Shown piece by piece: positions 1 through 23,391 of a stretch of DNA of 24,833 nucleotides. Position 1 is the stretch's first letter. Every line of letters begins with the position of its first letter. Where the stretch lies: the IMG/VR virus record IMGVR_UViG_3300049489_001217, positions 1 through 24,833 of that record; one strand, written 5' to 3'. The notes under the pieces were generated by a model. The model did no database searches. It was not told the DNA's origin and saw only the letters and a program-made list of their open reading frames with translations. The DNA is from a virus. The translations under genes and the position numbers were made by a program.

Positions 1-2640
1 AAATTTATTAACAGATTAGATGAATCAATTGAATTATCTATACAATTTGGTAGTCAAATGAAAGGTATGGGAGACATTACTTCTAAAGCAGCATTTGATA
101 TGGGAATTTCCTATGAATCTTTAATAGCTGGCCAAGTAAGTATGTTAGAATCTATAACTATGACTGGTAAGCAAACAGCATCTTTTACTAAAGAAATTGC
201 TTTTTTAAATAAAGGGACAGATATATCTACCGAATCTTTAGGAGAGTTGGCTGGTGCTGCTATGTCTGCTAATAAGAATTTTAGTTCAAAAGATTTAACA
301 CAAGCAGTTGGAACTTTTGCTTCTATTCAAAATAAGGTAGGGCTTTCTAAGAAAGAAATGACAGGTCTTGCTACATCATTGACCAAAAGTATTAAATCAA
401 TGTCTGCATTTACTAACAGTAAGAAATCAATCGAGGCTGTTACTAAAGCTACTGCAAATTTAGCGGGTATGTATAAGAAAGTTGGTTTAAATGCTGATTC
501 TGCTACTAAGTTAGTTGATAGATTATTAAACCCAGATGAGTTAGAGGATAATGCTTATTTAATGTCACAAATGGGAATAGGGTTTGGTGAATACGTTGAT
601 ATGTTAAACGGTGGAGATGCTGAAGCTGTAATGGGTAAAATGTCAGAAGGGATGTATGACATTGCACAACAAAGTAAAAATATGAGTTTTTTCCAAAAAC
701 AGGCGTATGCTAAGTCTATGGGTGTTACAGTAGAAGAATTAAATAAATTAGGTAAGATGTCTAGAGAAGAGTTTGAAGCTACTCAAACTACAGGAGAAGA
801 TGCATCTAAGTCAGTTGAGGAAAAACAAATAGCAGCAATGGAAAAAATATCAACTTCTCTCAATAGAATTGAAGAAGGCTTCAGTAGACTTATGCAGAAG
901 TATGGTGAGAAATTCGTTGATATATTTCAAAAAGTTGCTAAAATTCTTCCAAATATAATTGAAAAGATTATAGAGTTTGTAGGTGGTCTTTCTAAAGCTA
1001 AAATTATTCTATTAGCTATTGCTGCTACGCTAGGAGCTGTGTTTATTAAAGCTATGTCTTTTGCTAAGGTAAAGGCTATGTTTCAAGGTGGAGGAATAGG
1101 TGCATTATTTGGTATGGGAAAGGACGCTAAAGGACCAGACCCAAAAGCAGGTGCTGGAATCGGTGGATTTATAGAAGGTATAGCAAAAGGATTTAAGAAA
1201 TTTGATGGTAAAGCTCTAAAGGGAATGTTATTGTTTTCCGTAGGAATTTTGGCAATTATGGCAGTAGTAATTGGAGTTGGTCTAGCATCTGAAGCAGGTT
1301 TAAGCGGAGCCATGACTGGTTTCTTTAAATTATTTGAAGGATTAACATTAACAGATGCAGCTTCTTTTACAATTGGTGTGACAGCAATGGCAGTTTTAGT
1401 AATGGGATTTATTTTACTTGGTAAGTTTGCAGGTAAAAAGGGTTCGATGATGAAAGGTGCTGGTATGATGGGATTAACTTTGTTAATAATAGTTGTAGTT
1501 GGTGCTTTATTAGCACTTATTCCTGATACTTTTATGCAAAGAATGGTAATTGCAACAAACTCAATGGCTAAAATTGCTGTATCTATGCTTATATTAGCAC
1601 TAGTGTCAACAGCTATAGTTCTTTTATTATCTGGTATGTCCTTTTTATCTACTGTATTACCATTTGCTGGTGCTGGTGTAATAATATTTGGAATTGTTGT
1701 AGCTTTTATAATAGGTATGGCTGCTATTATTGGAGGCCTCTATGATGAAAAAGCAACTCCTGAGTTAATAAAGGGTACAAAAGAAATTTCTAAACTAGTT
1801 AAAACAATGTTAGTTCTAACAACATCTGTTCTTTTAATTGCAAGAAATCTAGTTGGAATGGGTTTAGCTGGTGTATTTAAAGGTAAAATGAAAAAAGGTG
1901 TTGAAGTTTTTAAAGATACTATTGGCTATATAAAAGAAATGGCTTCATATATTTTTGAAACTATAAGTGTAGAAATGGTTAGTAAGTTACAAGCTAGTCT
2001 TGGTAATTTTTCAAAAATATCTAAAGATTTAGAACAGTTTATGCAGGCCGGTAAAGCAGTTTCAGGTTTAATGGCATCTTTTGAAAAAAGTGCTTTCGGT
2101 CAAGCAGTTGAATGGATAGCACAAAAAGTTGGTAAAAAAACACCAATGCAATTAATGATTGCTGCTATTAATGATTTAGGATTATCAGCTGGAGGTATAA
2201 AGGTAGAAAATTTAGAAAATCTCCGACCAGCATTAGCTTCATTAAGTGTACTAGGAGAATCTTCTTCATCCTTCACTGCTTTAAAAGATTTATCTAAAAT
2301 AGATACTAAAAAGCTAAAAGAAAATGTTAATATTATTGGTAGCGTTTTAACTGATATGAGTAAATGGAGCGAAGGTGGTGCCATAAAAATTATGAATGGT
2401 AAAGTTGAAATTACCGTTAAACCGTCAGATGAAATGAAGCAACTATTCTCAGATAAGTCTGGTGGACTCATAGCAAAAGTCGAAGAAACAAACAAGATTC
2501 TAAAAGATATACTTGGTATAGATAAGACAAAGGGTATTCAAAGCATAGCTAGGGATACTAGAGTAATTAAAGAAATTGATGGTATACTTGCGTCTGGAAA
2601 TAAAGCTGTACAAGATAAAATTGCTAATTCTATGAGATAA
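1..2640 (+). CDS. Tail tape measure protein, 3' part (5' end outside window)
   Basis: The frame is open from base 1 without a stop, so the gene begins upstream and the ATG at 58 is internal. About 879 residues are visible. The first ~320 are soluble, helical and rich in Lys, Ser, Met and Gly. Then come several long hydrophobic stretches (roughly nt 990-1060, 1220-1290, 1375-1430, 1465-1530 and 1585-1730), followed by a soluble helical C-terminal third. This combination of very long helical protein, clustered membrane-like segments and a position directly before baseplate hub genes is typical of tape measure proteins. These set tail length and leave the tail to help DNA cross the cell membrane. 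Family assignment rests on composition and context, since no enzymatic domain such as a lysozyme or peptidase motif was seen in this part. It ends with TAA three bases before the next ATG. Confidence 0.8.
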   Translation, partial: KFINRLDESIELSIQFGSQMKGMGDITSKAAFDMGISYESLIAGQVSMLESITMTGKQTASFTKEIAFLNKGTDISTESLGELAGAAMSANKNFSSKDLTQAVGTFASIQNKVGLSKKEMTGLATSLTKSIKSMSAFTNSKKSIEAVTKATANLAGMYKKVGLNADSATKLVDRLLNPDELEDNAYLMSQMGIGFGEYVDMLNGGDAEAVMGKMSEGMYDIAQQSKNMSFFQKQAYAKSMGVTVEELNKLGKMSREEFEATQTTGEDASKSVEEKQIAAMEKISTSLNRIEEGFSRLMQKYGEKFVDIFQKVAKILPNIIEKIIEFVGGLSKAKIILLAIAATLGAVFIKAMSFAKVKAMFQGGGIGALFGMGKDAKGPDPKAGAGIGGFIEGIAKGFKKFDGKALKGMLLFSVGILAIMAVVIGVGLASEAGLSGAMTGFFKLFEGLTLTDAASFTIGVTAMAVLVMGFILLGKFAGKKGSMMKGAGMMGLTLLIIVVVGALLALIPDTFMQRMVIATNSMAKIAVSMLILALVSTAIVLLLSGMSFLSTVLPFAGAGVIIFGIVVAFIIGMAAIIGGLYDEKATPELIKGTKEISKLVKTMLVLTTSVLLIARNLVGMGLAGVFKGKMKKGVEVFKDTIGYIKEMASYIFETISVEMVSKLQASLGNFSKISKDLEQFMQAGKAVSGLMASFEKSAFGQAVEWIAQKVGKKTPMQLMIAAINDLGLSAGGIKVENLENLRPALASLSVLGESSSSFTALKDLSKIDTKKLKENVNIIGSVLTDMSKWSEGGAIKIMNGKVEITVKPSDEMKQLFSDKSGGLIAKVEETNKILKDILGIDKTKGIQSIARDTRVIKEIDGILASGNKAVQDKIANSMR

Positions 2641-22007: not shown

Positions 22008-23138
22008 ATGATGAATGAGCAAAAAAAAGAACAAGTAATGTCTTTAATAAATAAGACATTGGTTAAGGAAGGAATGGACGCTGGTCATTTATTTATGATA
22101 ATGACAGATAAGGGTTATGGTGCCCCAGCTGTACAAGATTTCTTTAATAAAGCAGGTGTTAACCTTACAAACGCAGAATTTCTTGAAGTTTATAATGGTA
22201 TGAAGCAGGCTATAGATGATAAAGCAAAACAAGTAGAAGAAAAGAAAATAGCTGACAGTAAAGAGCCAACTTTTCAAGATATTTTAAAAAATAAGAATAT
22301 TGTTACGAATAATCAAGATTTACTTTCAAACATTGAGAAAAAAGAAGATAATTCATTTGTTACTGAAAATTATACTAAAAACTCATCTGGTTCTTATTTT
22401 ACTACTGGACCAACTGAAAATGAACCAGCAGCTGAAGCCGTAACCCTTCCTTCTAAAGGTAGATTTTATAATGGAATTTTAGCAGATAAAAAAGGGAAAA
22501 TATTAATAAGACCAATGACTCTTACTGAAGAAAAAATATTCACTACAGAAAGATTACTTAGAAATGGTCAAGCAATTGATATGGTTTTTAGAAATTGTAT
22601 TAAAACACCAGGTATAGATACAACAGAGCTTCTTTCTTCCGATAGAATGTTTCTATTATTCTTTTTAAGAGCTATTTCTTATGGACCTATTTATTCTATA
22701 AAAACTAAATGTACTAGTTGTGGTGCAGATAATGAAGATAAACTAAACATAGAAGAATTACAAATAAAGGAACCACACACGGCTCTTGTAGACCCTTTCA
22801 TAATTGAGCTTCCAGCTTCTAAGTTAAAACTTACAATGCGTATATCTAGAGGCCGAGATGAATCAGAAATGATTAAGAATAGTAATCTAAAAAAAGATGA
22901 TGATTCTCCTATTGTTGATAGGATATTAAGTTTACTCATTGGAATAGATGGAGTAACTAAAGAAAACTATAGAGCTAAGTTGGAAATGTTAATTGGAAAA
23001 GATGTTTCTCATATTAGAAAAACTCTTGAAATAATAGATTTTGGTTATAACGTAGATAAAGTTGGTACATGTACAAAATGTAAAAGTGAGTATAAACTTG
23101 CTTTGACATTAAACGAAAACTTTTTTCGTTCCGAGTAG
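22008..23138 (+). CDS. T4 gp26-like baseplate hub/tail assembly chaperone with zinc ribbon (0-frame product)
   Basis: A 376-residue protein; TAGGAG precedes ATG 22008, with a second in-frame ATG at 22011. Residues 1-70 are helical, then an acidic Lys/Asn/Ser linker to ~140. From ~145 it follows the T4 gp26-like baseplate protein family: LPSKGRFYNG, ILIRPMTLTEEKIFTTERLL, AIDMVFRNCI, then LLSSDRMFLLFFLRAISYG. Two Cys pairs, CTSC near 238 and CTKC near 358, probably bind zinc. Family members act in hub assembly, and the fold type recalls tail assembly chaperones. The 0-frame ends FFRSE just after a TTT TTT CGT run. The +1 frame continues with an 87-codon coding-like stretch, so a longer 460-residue product (22008-23391) is likely also, or instead, made. 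Confidence 0.75.
   Translation: MMNEQKKEQVMSLINKTLVKEGMDAGHLFMIMTDKGYGAPAVQDFFNKAGVNLTNAEFLEVYNGMKQAIDDKAKQVEEKKIADSKEPTFQDILKNKNIVTNNQDLLSNIEKKEDNSFVTENYTKNSSGSYFTTGPTENEPAAEAVTLPSKGRFYNGILADKKGKILIRPMTLTEEKIFTTERLLRNGQAIDMVFRNCIKTPGIDTTELLSSDRMFLLFFLRAISYGPIYSIKTKCTSCGADNEDKLNIEELQIKEPHTALVDPFIIELPASKLKLTMRISRGRDESEMIKNSNLKKDDDSPIVDRILSLLIGIDGVTKENYRAKLEMLIGKDVSHIRKTLEIIDFGYNVDKVGTCTKCKSEYKLALTLNENFFRSE
23118..23127 (+). promoter_or_regulatory. Candidate programmed frameshift site (AAC TTT TTT C)
   Basis: In the gp26-like frame the codons are AAC TTT TTT CGT TCC GAG TAG. A tRNA-Phe on the second TTT could move forward one base to TTC, a perfect match for anticodon GAA, while the less used CGT codon waits in the A site. 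Reading then continues GTT CCG AGT in frame +1 (peptide FFVPSSNEG). A -2 slip would reach the same frame with one extra Phe. Frames and codons are seen directly; the event is inferred. Confidence 0.5.
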
Positions 23139-23391
23139 TAATGAGGGCCTACGAGAGAATTACGAATCTCTTATTAGGCAAACAGTCCAGCTCACTACTG
23201 CGGGAAACTTTACATACAGGGACCTATTATCTATGGAAATTCGTGAAAGAAACGATATCTACAAAGAACTTGTTAAACAGAAAAAAGAGGAGAATGACGC
23301 TTATAACGGAAAATCATCTGCTCCAAGAGTATCTGCTCCTTCAATGCCAAGAATAAATAATCCTAATGTTAAAATTCCTAAATTTTATTAA
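23128..23391 (+). CDS. C-terminal extension of gp26-like protein in +1 frame (87 codons)
   Basis: This frame is open from 23113 to the TAA at 23389-23391 and encodes, after the proposed slip, VPSSNEGLRENYESLIRQ, then TAGNFTYRDLLSMEIRERND, then IYKELVKQKKEE, ending in a Pro-rich tail APSMPRINNPNVKIPKFY. It reads like a real protein: an amphipathic helix, a charged helix and an ordered Pro/Asn tail. No ATG, GTG or TTG occurs in frame before 23233. An independent gene from that ATG would be only 52 residues, with AGGGA at about 10 nt as possible ribosome site. I prefer a frameshift fusion with the preceding gene, as in lambda G-GT and P2 E-E' tail chaperones. A true 1-base indel in the assembly or a natural mutation would give the same picture. 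Confidence 0.6.
   Translation, partial: VPSSNEGLRENYESLIRQTVQLTTAGNFTYRDLLSMEIRERNDIYKELVKQKKEENDAYNGKSSAPRVSAPSMPRINNPNVKIPKFY
23135..23201 (+). other. Potential RNA stem-loop downstream of slip site
   Basis: The outer arms 23135-23145 (GTAGTAATGAG) and 23191-23201 (CTCACTACTGC) can form 10 of 11 pairs, including one G-T, with one A-C mismatch. Inside, GCCT (23147-23150) pairs with AGGC (23176-23179). Then 23153-23158 pairs with 23167-23172 (first pair G-T) and TT (23160-23161) with AA (23165-23166) around loop ACG. The arms start 7 nt after the slip run and include the 0-frame TAG. Pairing was done by hand, without a folding energy. Confidence 0.5.

Follow-up and report, generated by a model that had tools for sequence, protein, structure and literature searches.

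Described tail assembly chaperone systems

A tail chaperone frameshift conserved among dsDNA phages is represented by the G and GT proteins of bacteriophage λ (Xu et al. 2004, reviewed in PMC5009743). Two overlapping frames there encode a short chaperone and a lengthened one, and λ-type chaperone genes usually come immediately before the gene for the tape measure. Hub assembly chaperones listed for bacteriophage T4 include gp26 and gp51, the latter being required for assembly and absent from the particle (PMC3004832). The tail assembly chaperones of T4-like phages are the subject of Vladimirov, Gautam and Davidson (2022, Virology 566:9-15), which is cited in PMC10885494 and PMC12846349 for the two genes of T4 and, in the second of these, for poly-T signals that direct -1 shifts in T4-like chaperone genes. 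In cyanophages, gp51 was described as about 20% of full length, and the relevant passages of that study mention the shortening but not a frameshift (Sullivan et al. 2010, PMC3037559).

The locus presented here is a gp26-like gene whose 3' end overlaps a second open frame in the +1 phase. Judging from sequence comparison, it is very probably a G/GT-type tail assembly chaperone gene of a T4-related contractile-tailed phage, with two proteins made by programmed +1 frameshifting. An earlier sequence-only reading had taken a frameshift in the gp26 family to be undescribed, a view that the T4-like chaperones and poly-T -1 signals cited above overturn. Those signals differ from the +1 UUU-C site of this locus, and a search of open-licence literature yielded no account of a +1 branch or of a switch in shift direction.

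Two overlapping frames in the window

The window is the whole stretch of viral DNA that was analysed, 24,833 nucleotides from IMG/VR record IMGVR_UViG_3300049489_001217, and its features are collected in Table 1. The zero-frame ORF ends in LNENFFRSE-TAG directly after TTT TTT CGT, where a run of six T residues (T6) occupies 23121-23126. The overlapping +1 frame is free of stops from 23113 to 23391, and a 92-codon opening in a given frame has a chance of about 1 in 10,000 at the AT-rich composition of the window. When the +1 frame is read as TTT TTT (C) GTT CCG, it gives FFVPSSNEG and continues for 87 codons, which brings the long form to 460 aa; its translation across the shift bases begins FFVPSSNEGLRENYESLIRQ. 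The earliest ATG, GTG or TTG in the extension frame is the ATG at 23233, codon 36 of 87. A check of sequence and ORFs confirmed the coordinates, the 460-residue length and the lack of a start before codon 36 as they had been given in the sequence-only reading.

Table 1. Coordinates of the features discussed; positions refer to the window except for the last four lines, which refer to the named relatives.
Feature	Position	Strand	Basis or remark
Candidate tape measure protein	58..2640	+	Position, length, hydrophobic stretches; ~20 kb upstream of the gp26-like gene
gp26-like gene, short (zero-frame) product of 376 aa, proposed TAC-N	22008..23138	+	ORF; PF12322 E 2.6e-16; PHROG 150 baseplate hub E 2.3e-22
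PF12322 T4_baseplate domain, residues 159-373	22482..23126	+	Pfam profile match
First CxxC pair of the core, KCTSCG	22710..22721	+	Read from sequence; alignment columns nearly invariant
Second CxxC pair, TCTKCK	23070..23081	+	~15 residues upstream of the FF motif; columns nearly invariant
Shift site TTT TTT CGT	23121..23129	+	P-site UUU, then rare codon CGU; proposed +1 re-pairing on UUC
+1-frame extension, 87 codons and stop	23128..23391	+	Forms the C-terminus of the long product of 460 aa (proposed TAC-NC)
Possible stimulatory RNA, nested stem-loop directly 3' of the shift site	23129..23206	+	MFE -25.4 kcal/mol
Zero-frame stop TAG of the short product	23136..23138	+	
PHROG 18291 locus in L036	2328-2537		
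PHROG 18291 locus in L038	2367-2543		
PHROG 18291 locus in L039	2367-2543		
PHROG 18291 locus in L012	3819-4022		

The PF12322 match scores 60.4 bits against a curated cut-off of 24.5 and spans positions 10-218 of the 219 in the profile. In the family alignment, the window's short form has both CxxC pairs and, at its end, the FF motif; the second pair is absent in some relatives (L008, L032). When the +1 continuation is added to the short product, the E value of the match to PHROG 23772 falls from 0.011 to 5.6e-6, with residues 334-430 aligned across the join, and the match to PHROG 150 reaches residue 395. Since both matches run across the join, the extension belongs to the same protein family as the core. 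Ahead of the domain, at 22008-22436, lies a 143-residue N-terminal region outside PF12322, and similarly long N-terminal regions occur in L002, L019, L021 and L023.

A third frame, in the -1 phase, is also open across the region (23096-23356), running 218 nt past the TAG with an ATG at 23141. A family profile search with this frame gave no match, and it was rejected as an alternative product, the extension profile matching the +1 frame only.

Conservation of the frame break among relatives

Relatives were obtained by tblastn searches of phages and with the help of small sub-alignments, and the set was later widened to take in jumbo phages and cyanophages. The tabulated set comprises 36 distinct loci, the window and 35 relatives, drawn from metagenomes and from isolates that include SP-15, LIS04, XacN1, 121Q, RaK2, GAP32, Atu_ph07 and cyanophages. 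Several of the tblastn matches stop near residue 375, the point of the window's frame break. In all of the first 11 relatives, the core gene stops shortly past its zinc ribbon and FF motif, and a frame that overlaps it continues well beyond the stop; across the whole set (36/36), a homologous extension takes over at one shared protein position and is read in another frame that overlaps the first. The direction of the change is -1 in 24 loci, 121Q and Cassandra among them, and +1 in 12, with the window, SP-15 and LIS04 in the second group. Profiles trained on 12 of the loci recovered both core and extension outside the training set. The extension profile had a match in every complete relative tested, with E values down to 7e-22 in new loci; the window itself, being a training row, scored 5.7e-22, and the weakest members were L035 and L030 (E 0.0003 and 0.001). 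Homologues of the extension, which the sequence-only reading had proposed to look for, are therefore present in relatives, but the fusions in one frame that it had also envisaged are not: in 0 of the 36 loci are core and extension in phase.

These counts bear directly on whether the break is a sequencing or assembly indel in a gene that is truly continuous. A T6 run is error-prone, the window is a single contig, and deletion of one T would fuse the frames. The sequence-only reading had supposed that seven T residues would give a continuous frame; it is five that do so, and a seventh leads into the third frame noted above. An error would nevertheless have to recur at the same protein position in isolates and metagenomes alike, with no fused locus among 36 and with a shift motif that agrees with the direction of the frame change in every one, and we regard it as very improbable. 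Close relatives of the window protein were not found in viral contigs, an exact search for the shift-site DNA returned no relatives, and scans with the XacN1/RAS14 pair and of genome contigs gave no close relative of the window, so that a single contig underlies the site in the window itself. Taken as a feature conserved across the genomes of the family, the frameshift is in all probability real on this comparative evidence.

Within the two closest pairs of relatives, the extension beyond the core stop has a dN/dS of about 0.08 (L021/L023) and about 0.12 (L038/L039), with third positions changing most. By this sequence measure, the extension is under purifying selection in the related pairs. 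Together with an extension frame that is intact and homologous in the window, such selection argues against a decayed gene, in which a recent frameshift mutation would have left the short form alone functional. Decay would accommodate the end point of the short form, which is that of T4 gp26 (the FF motif) and so allows that the short form may function alone, yet as an account of the whole locus its probability is close to negligible.

Translation of the extension as a separate gene, by re-initiation at the stop or from an internal start, is suggested by existing annotation, in which it stands as its own small ORF in 121Q, GAP32, CBB, XacN1 and cyanophages, and by an ATG that overlaps the stop in some relatives (121Q, Atu_ph07). 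The extension frame of Cassandra, however, is without any ATG, GTG or TTG, and a product begun at the first start in the window would lack the conserved first 35 of the 87 codons, with no Shine-Dalgarno-like sequence to serve that start; on these two grounds separate translation is unlikely. Conserved residues also lie upstream of any start, and the in-phase conservation of shift heptamers would be without reason. Taken together, these observations make a separate gene extremely improbable and favor programmed frameshifting.

Shift site, codon usage and RNA structure

The motif at the overlap divides the family by direction. All 24 of the -1 loci carry an in-phase T_TTT_TTC or T_TTT_TTT heptamer, which was found in none of the 12 +1 loci, the window included; the 12 have UUU-C, UUU-U or, in L035, CUU-UAA instead. 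At 3683-3991 of L035, a divergent relative, the frame change falls on CTT TAA and resembles the CUU-stop +1 site of the RF2 type. In the window, the overlap holds a zero-frame UUU followed by a pyrimidine (UUU_CGU), and CGT is used 2.2 times per 1000 codons in this phage against 24.5 for AGA. Bacterial ribosomes shift by +1 with particular ease at UUU_Ynn, and a +1 cassette with UUU_CGU has been documented (PMC5009743). The cassette and the YopN-TyeA shift follow the same tetranucleotide logic, with P-site UUU re-pairing on UUY, but they come from different genes and organisms and are convergent sites rather than homologues of the window's.

The T6 run of the window would also permit -2 slippage or transcriptional slippage, and the sequence-only reading had left the choice at +1 or -2. 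Among the +1 relatives, several have no such run and read TTC TTT CGT, TTC TTT CAT, TTT CTA or TTT CTT, which points to +1 as the shared mechanism. GXN1, L007, immuto and L017 share the frame change without T6, so that a -2 slip offers no explanation for those loci, and the -1 relatives use a tandem heptamer. With transcriptional slippage included, the alternative to a +1 ribosomal slip is improbable. Of the two features whose conservation the sequence-only reading had proposed to check, TTT TTT C and the frame change, a frame change is present throughout (36/36), and the T6 run is lacking in several +1 relatives.

Directly 3' of the site, the predicted stem-loop is more stable than codon-shuffled sequences of 90 nt (z -2.6; 4 of 500 as low), while over a longer stretch of 161 nt the fold is not unusual by dinucleotide shuffling (z -1.2). 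An Rfam search of the window returned no match. Across the family, the mean codon-shuffle z downstream of the site is -1.37 (SE 0.28) for -1 loci, significant on average, and -0.80 (SE 0.46) for +1 loci, which is moderate support only.

Codon usage is depressed over the same region. Codons 1-36 of the extension have a usage score of -0.32, lower than each of 1218 gene segments of that size (mean 0.37, sd 0.11). The segment 23128-23235 exceeds every other coding segment of the window in G+C (44%) and in phage-rare codons; its odd codon use fits a constraint from RNA structure, which does not explain it fully. Downstream codon scores are low in 36 of 36 family loci, although these loci are short and their codon tables were trained on comparison genes, which biases the scores downward, and the score for the window, based on 17 genes, is the sounder.

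T4 and cyanophage counterparts

T4 gp26 has 208 aa and the C-terminus EFFELL, and T4 gp51 has 249 aa. Both match PF12322 (E 8.8e-64 for gp26 and 3.9e-52 for gp51), and on PHROG 150, a profile of 282 positions, gp26 covers 14-235 and gp51 covers 13-280, which takes in the profile tail. This difference in coverage within one family indicates that T4 encodes a short and a long form in separate genes; by sequence, gp26 and gp51 are paralogues matching the two forms. They resemble the window products in their shared N-terminal part, with gp26 stopping at the FF motif and gp51 carrying an extra C-terminal part, and differ in being two genes without frameshifting. PHROG 634, named hub assembly catalyst, matches both the C-terminus of T4 gp51 and the cyanophage extension frame. 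When T4 gp51 alone is set against the core and extension alignments, the profile comparisons are weak, and the link between gp51 and the family rests on PF12322, the PHROG profiles and one marginal profile match. In cyanophages, the -1 frame that continues gp26 is annotated as a short ORF under the name gp51 or hub assembly catalyst (PHROG 634, E 3e-30). The cyanophage gp26, which ends on TTT TTC/T, and the short gp51 are thus the same pair as in the window, but the direction is -1.

Gene position

The gene stands between those for the tail tube and the tape measure in SP-15, LIS04, immuto and Mel-JY01, which is the classical position of a tail assembly chaperone; in Mel-JY01, the large ORF downstream of the gene carries no name. 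In the window, it follows the fibre genes and is not beside the tape measure, the usual though not universal place for a chaperone. The odd position remarked on in the sequence-only reading is therefore true of the window but not of these four relatives, and the gene is displaced in the window's lineage. The candidate tape measure protein of the window gave no family match with Pfam or PHROG profiles. T4 likewise does without a strict gene order near the tape measure and is nevertheless accepted as having tail assembly chaperones.

Proposed two-product chaperone

Both the programmed +1 frameshift that yields a gp26-like fusion and the role of the gp26-like family as tail assembly chaperone, as put forward in the sequence-only reading, are well supported by the comparison of 36 loci. 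Sequence and conservation indicate two products with a shared N-terminus, the longer one obtained by a frameshift near the 3' end, as in the G/GT type. Most ribosomes would terminate at the TAG at 23136 and release the short form. In a fraction, tRNA-Phe on the UUU at 23124-23126 would slip by +1 onto UUC with the rare CGU in the A site, and these ribosomes would continue to 23391 and add the 87-aa helical extension. By analogy with λ G/GT, the short form may coat the tape measure protein and the long form may recruit tube subunits. For the window phage, we infer slippage, its rate and the chaperone function, and a role in tail assembly would follow from the family, from gene position in relatives and from analogy.

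The comparison with λ also has its differences: the λ shift is -1 at a different heptamer, and the window gene is displaced. No sequence similarity was found between the window protein and λ G/GT, and the only likeness on that side is a weak fold match to HK97. An AlphaFold model of core and extension (pLDDT 78, pTM 0.67) gave no significant match in Foldseek; the highest probability among the matches listed, 0.28, was for the HK97 tail assembly chaperone gp13 (2ob9; TM by target 0.43, E 1.6), and VIA compared the model with 2ob9 at Z 3.7. As a weak match of a predicted structure, this likeness is a hint at most and was counted against the main reading.

Direction of the shift across the family

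In a tree built from the core alone, with the extension left out, two changes of direction are needed and are forced by supported branches, although the long branches of L035, gp51 and L030 are placed uncertainly. The window, a +1 locus, is sister to a -1 clade (96/94) nested in an otherwise +1 group, and T4 gp26 and gp51 form a pair beside the cyanophages. It is likely that this is one orthologous chaperone family in which an obligatory frameshift switched direction at least twice, between -1 on U_UUU_UUC and +1 on UUU-C, once probably CUU_UAA, with two genes in T4. If so, selection would act on having the two forms in a set ratio and not on the mode of recoding. Across the family, a single conserved frameshift would be found in -1 form, in +1 form or supplanted by a pair of genes, a natural series for testing product ratio and mechanism against each other as the selected trait.

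Consequences for annotation

In many phages of the jumbo and T4-related kinds, the gene now labelled as a baseplate hub subunit may need to be renamed as a two-product tail assembly chaperone, and the comparison bears on the roles of T4 gp26 and gp51 in hub assembly. Orphan small ORFs and families, among them PHROG 18291, PHROG 634 and the short cyanophage gp51, would be explained as the frameshift-encoded half. PHROG 18291, annotated as of unknown function, corresponds to that half of gp26 in phages of the GAP32 and Vibrio 2.275 type (Table 1), an identity tested for L038 and L012 and inferred for 121Q and CBB. In two cyanophage loci, L043 (3121-3258) and L044 (3136-3240), the gene annotated as baseplate hub assembly catalyst begins at a start codon inside the -1 frame that continues gp26.
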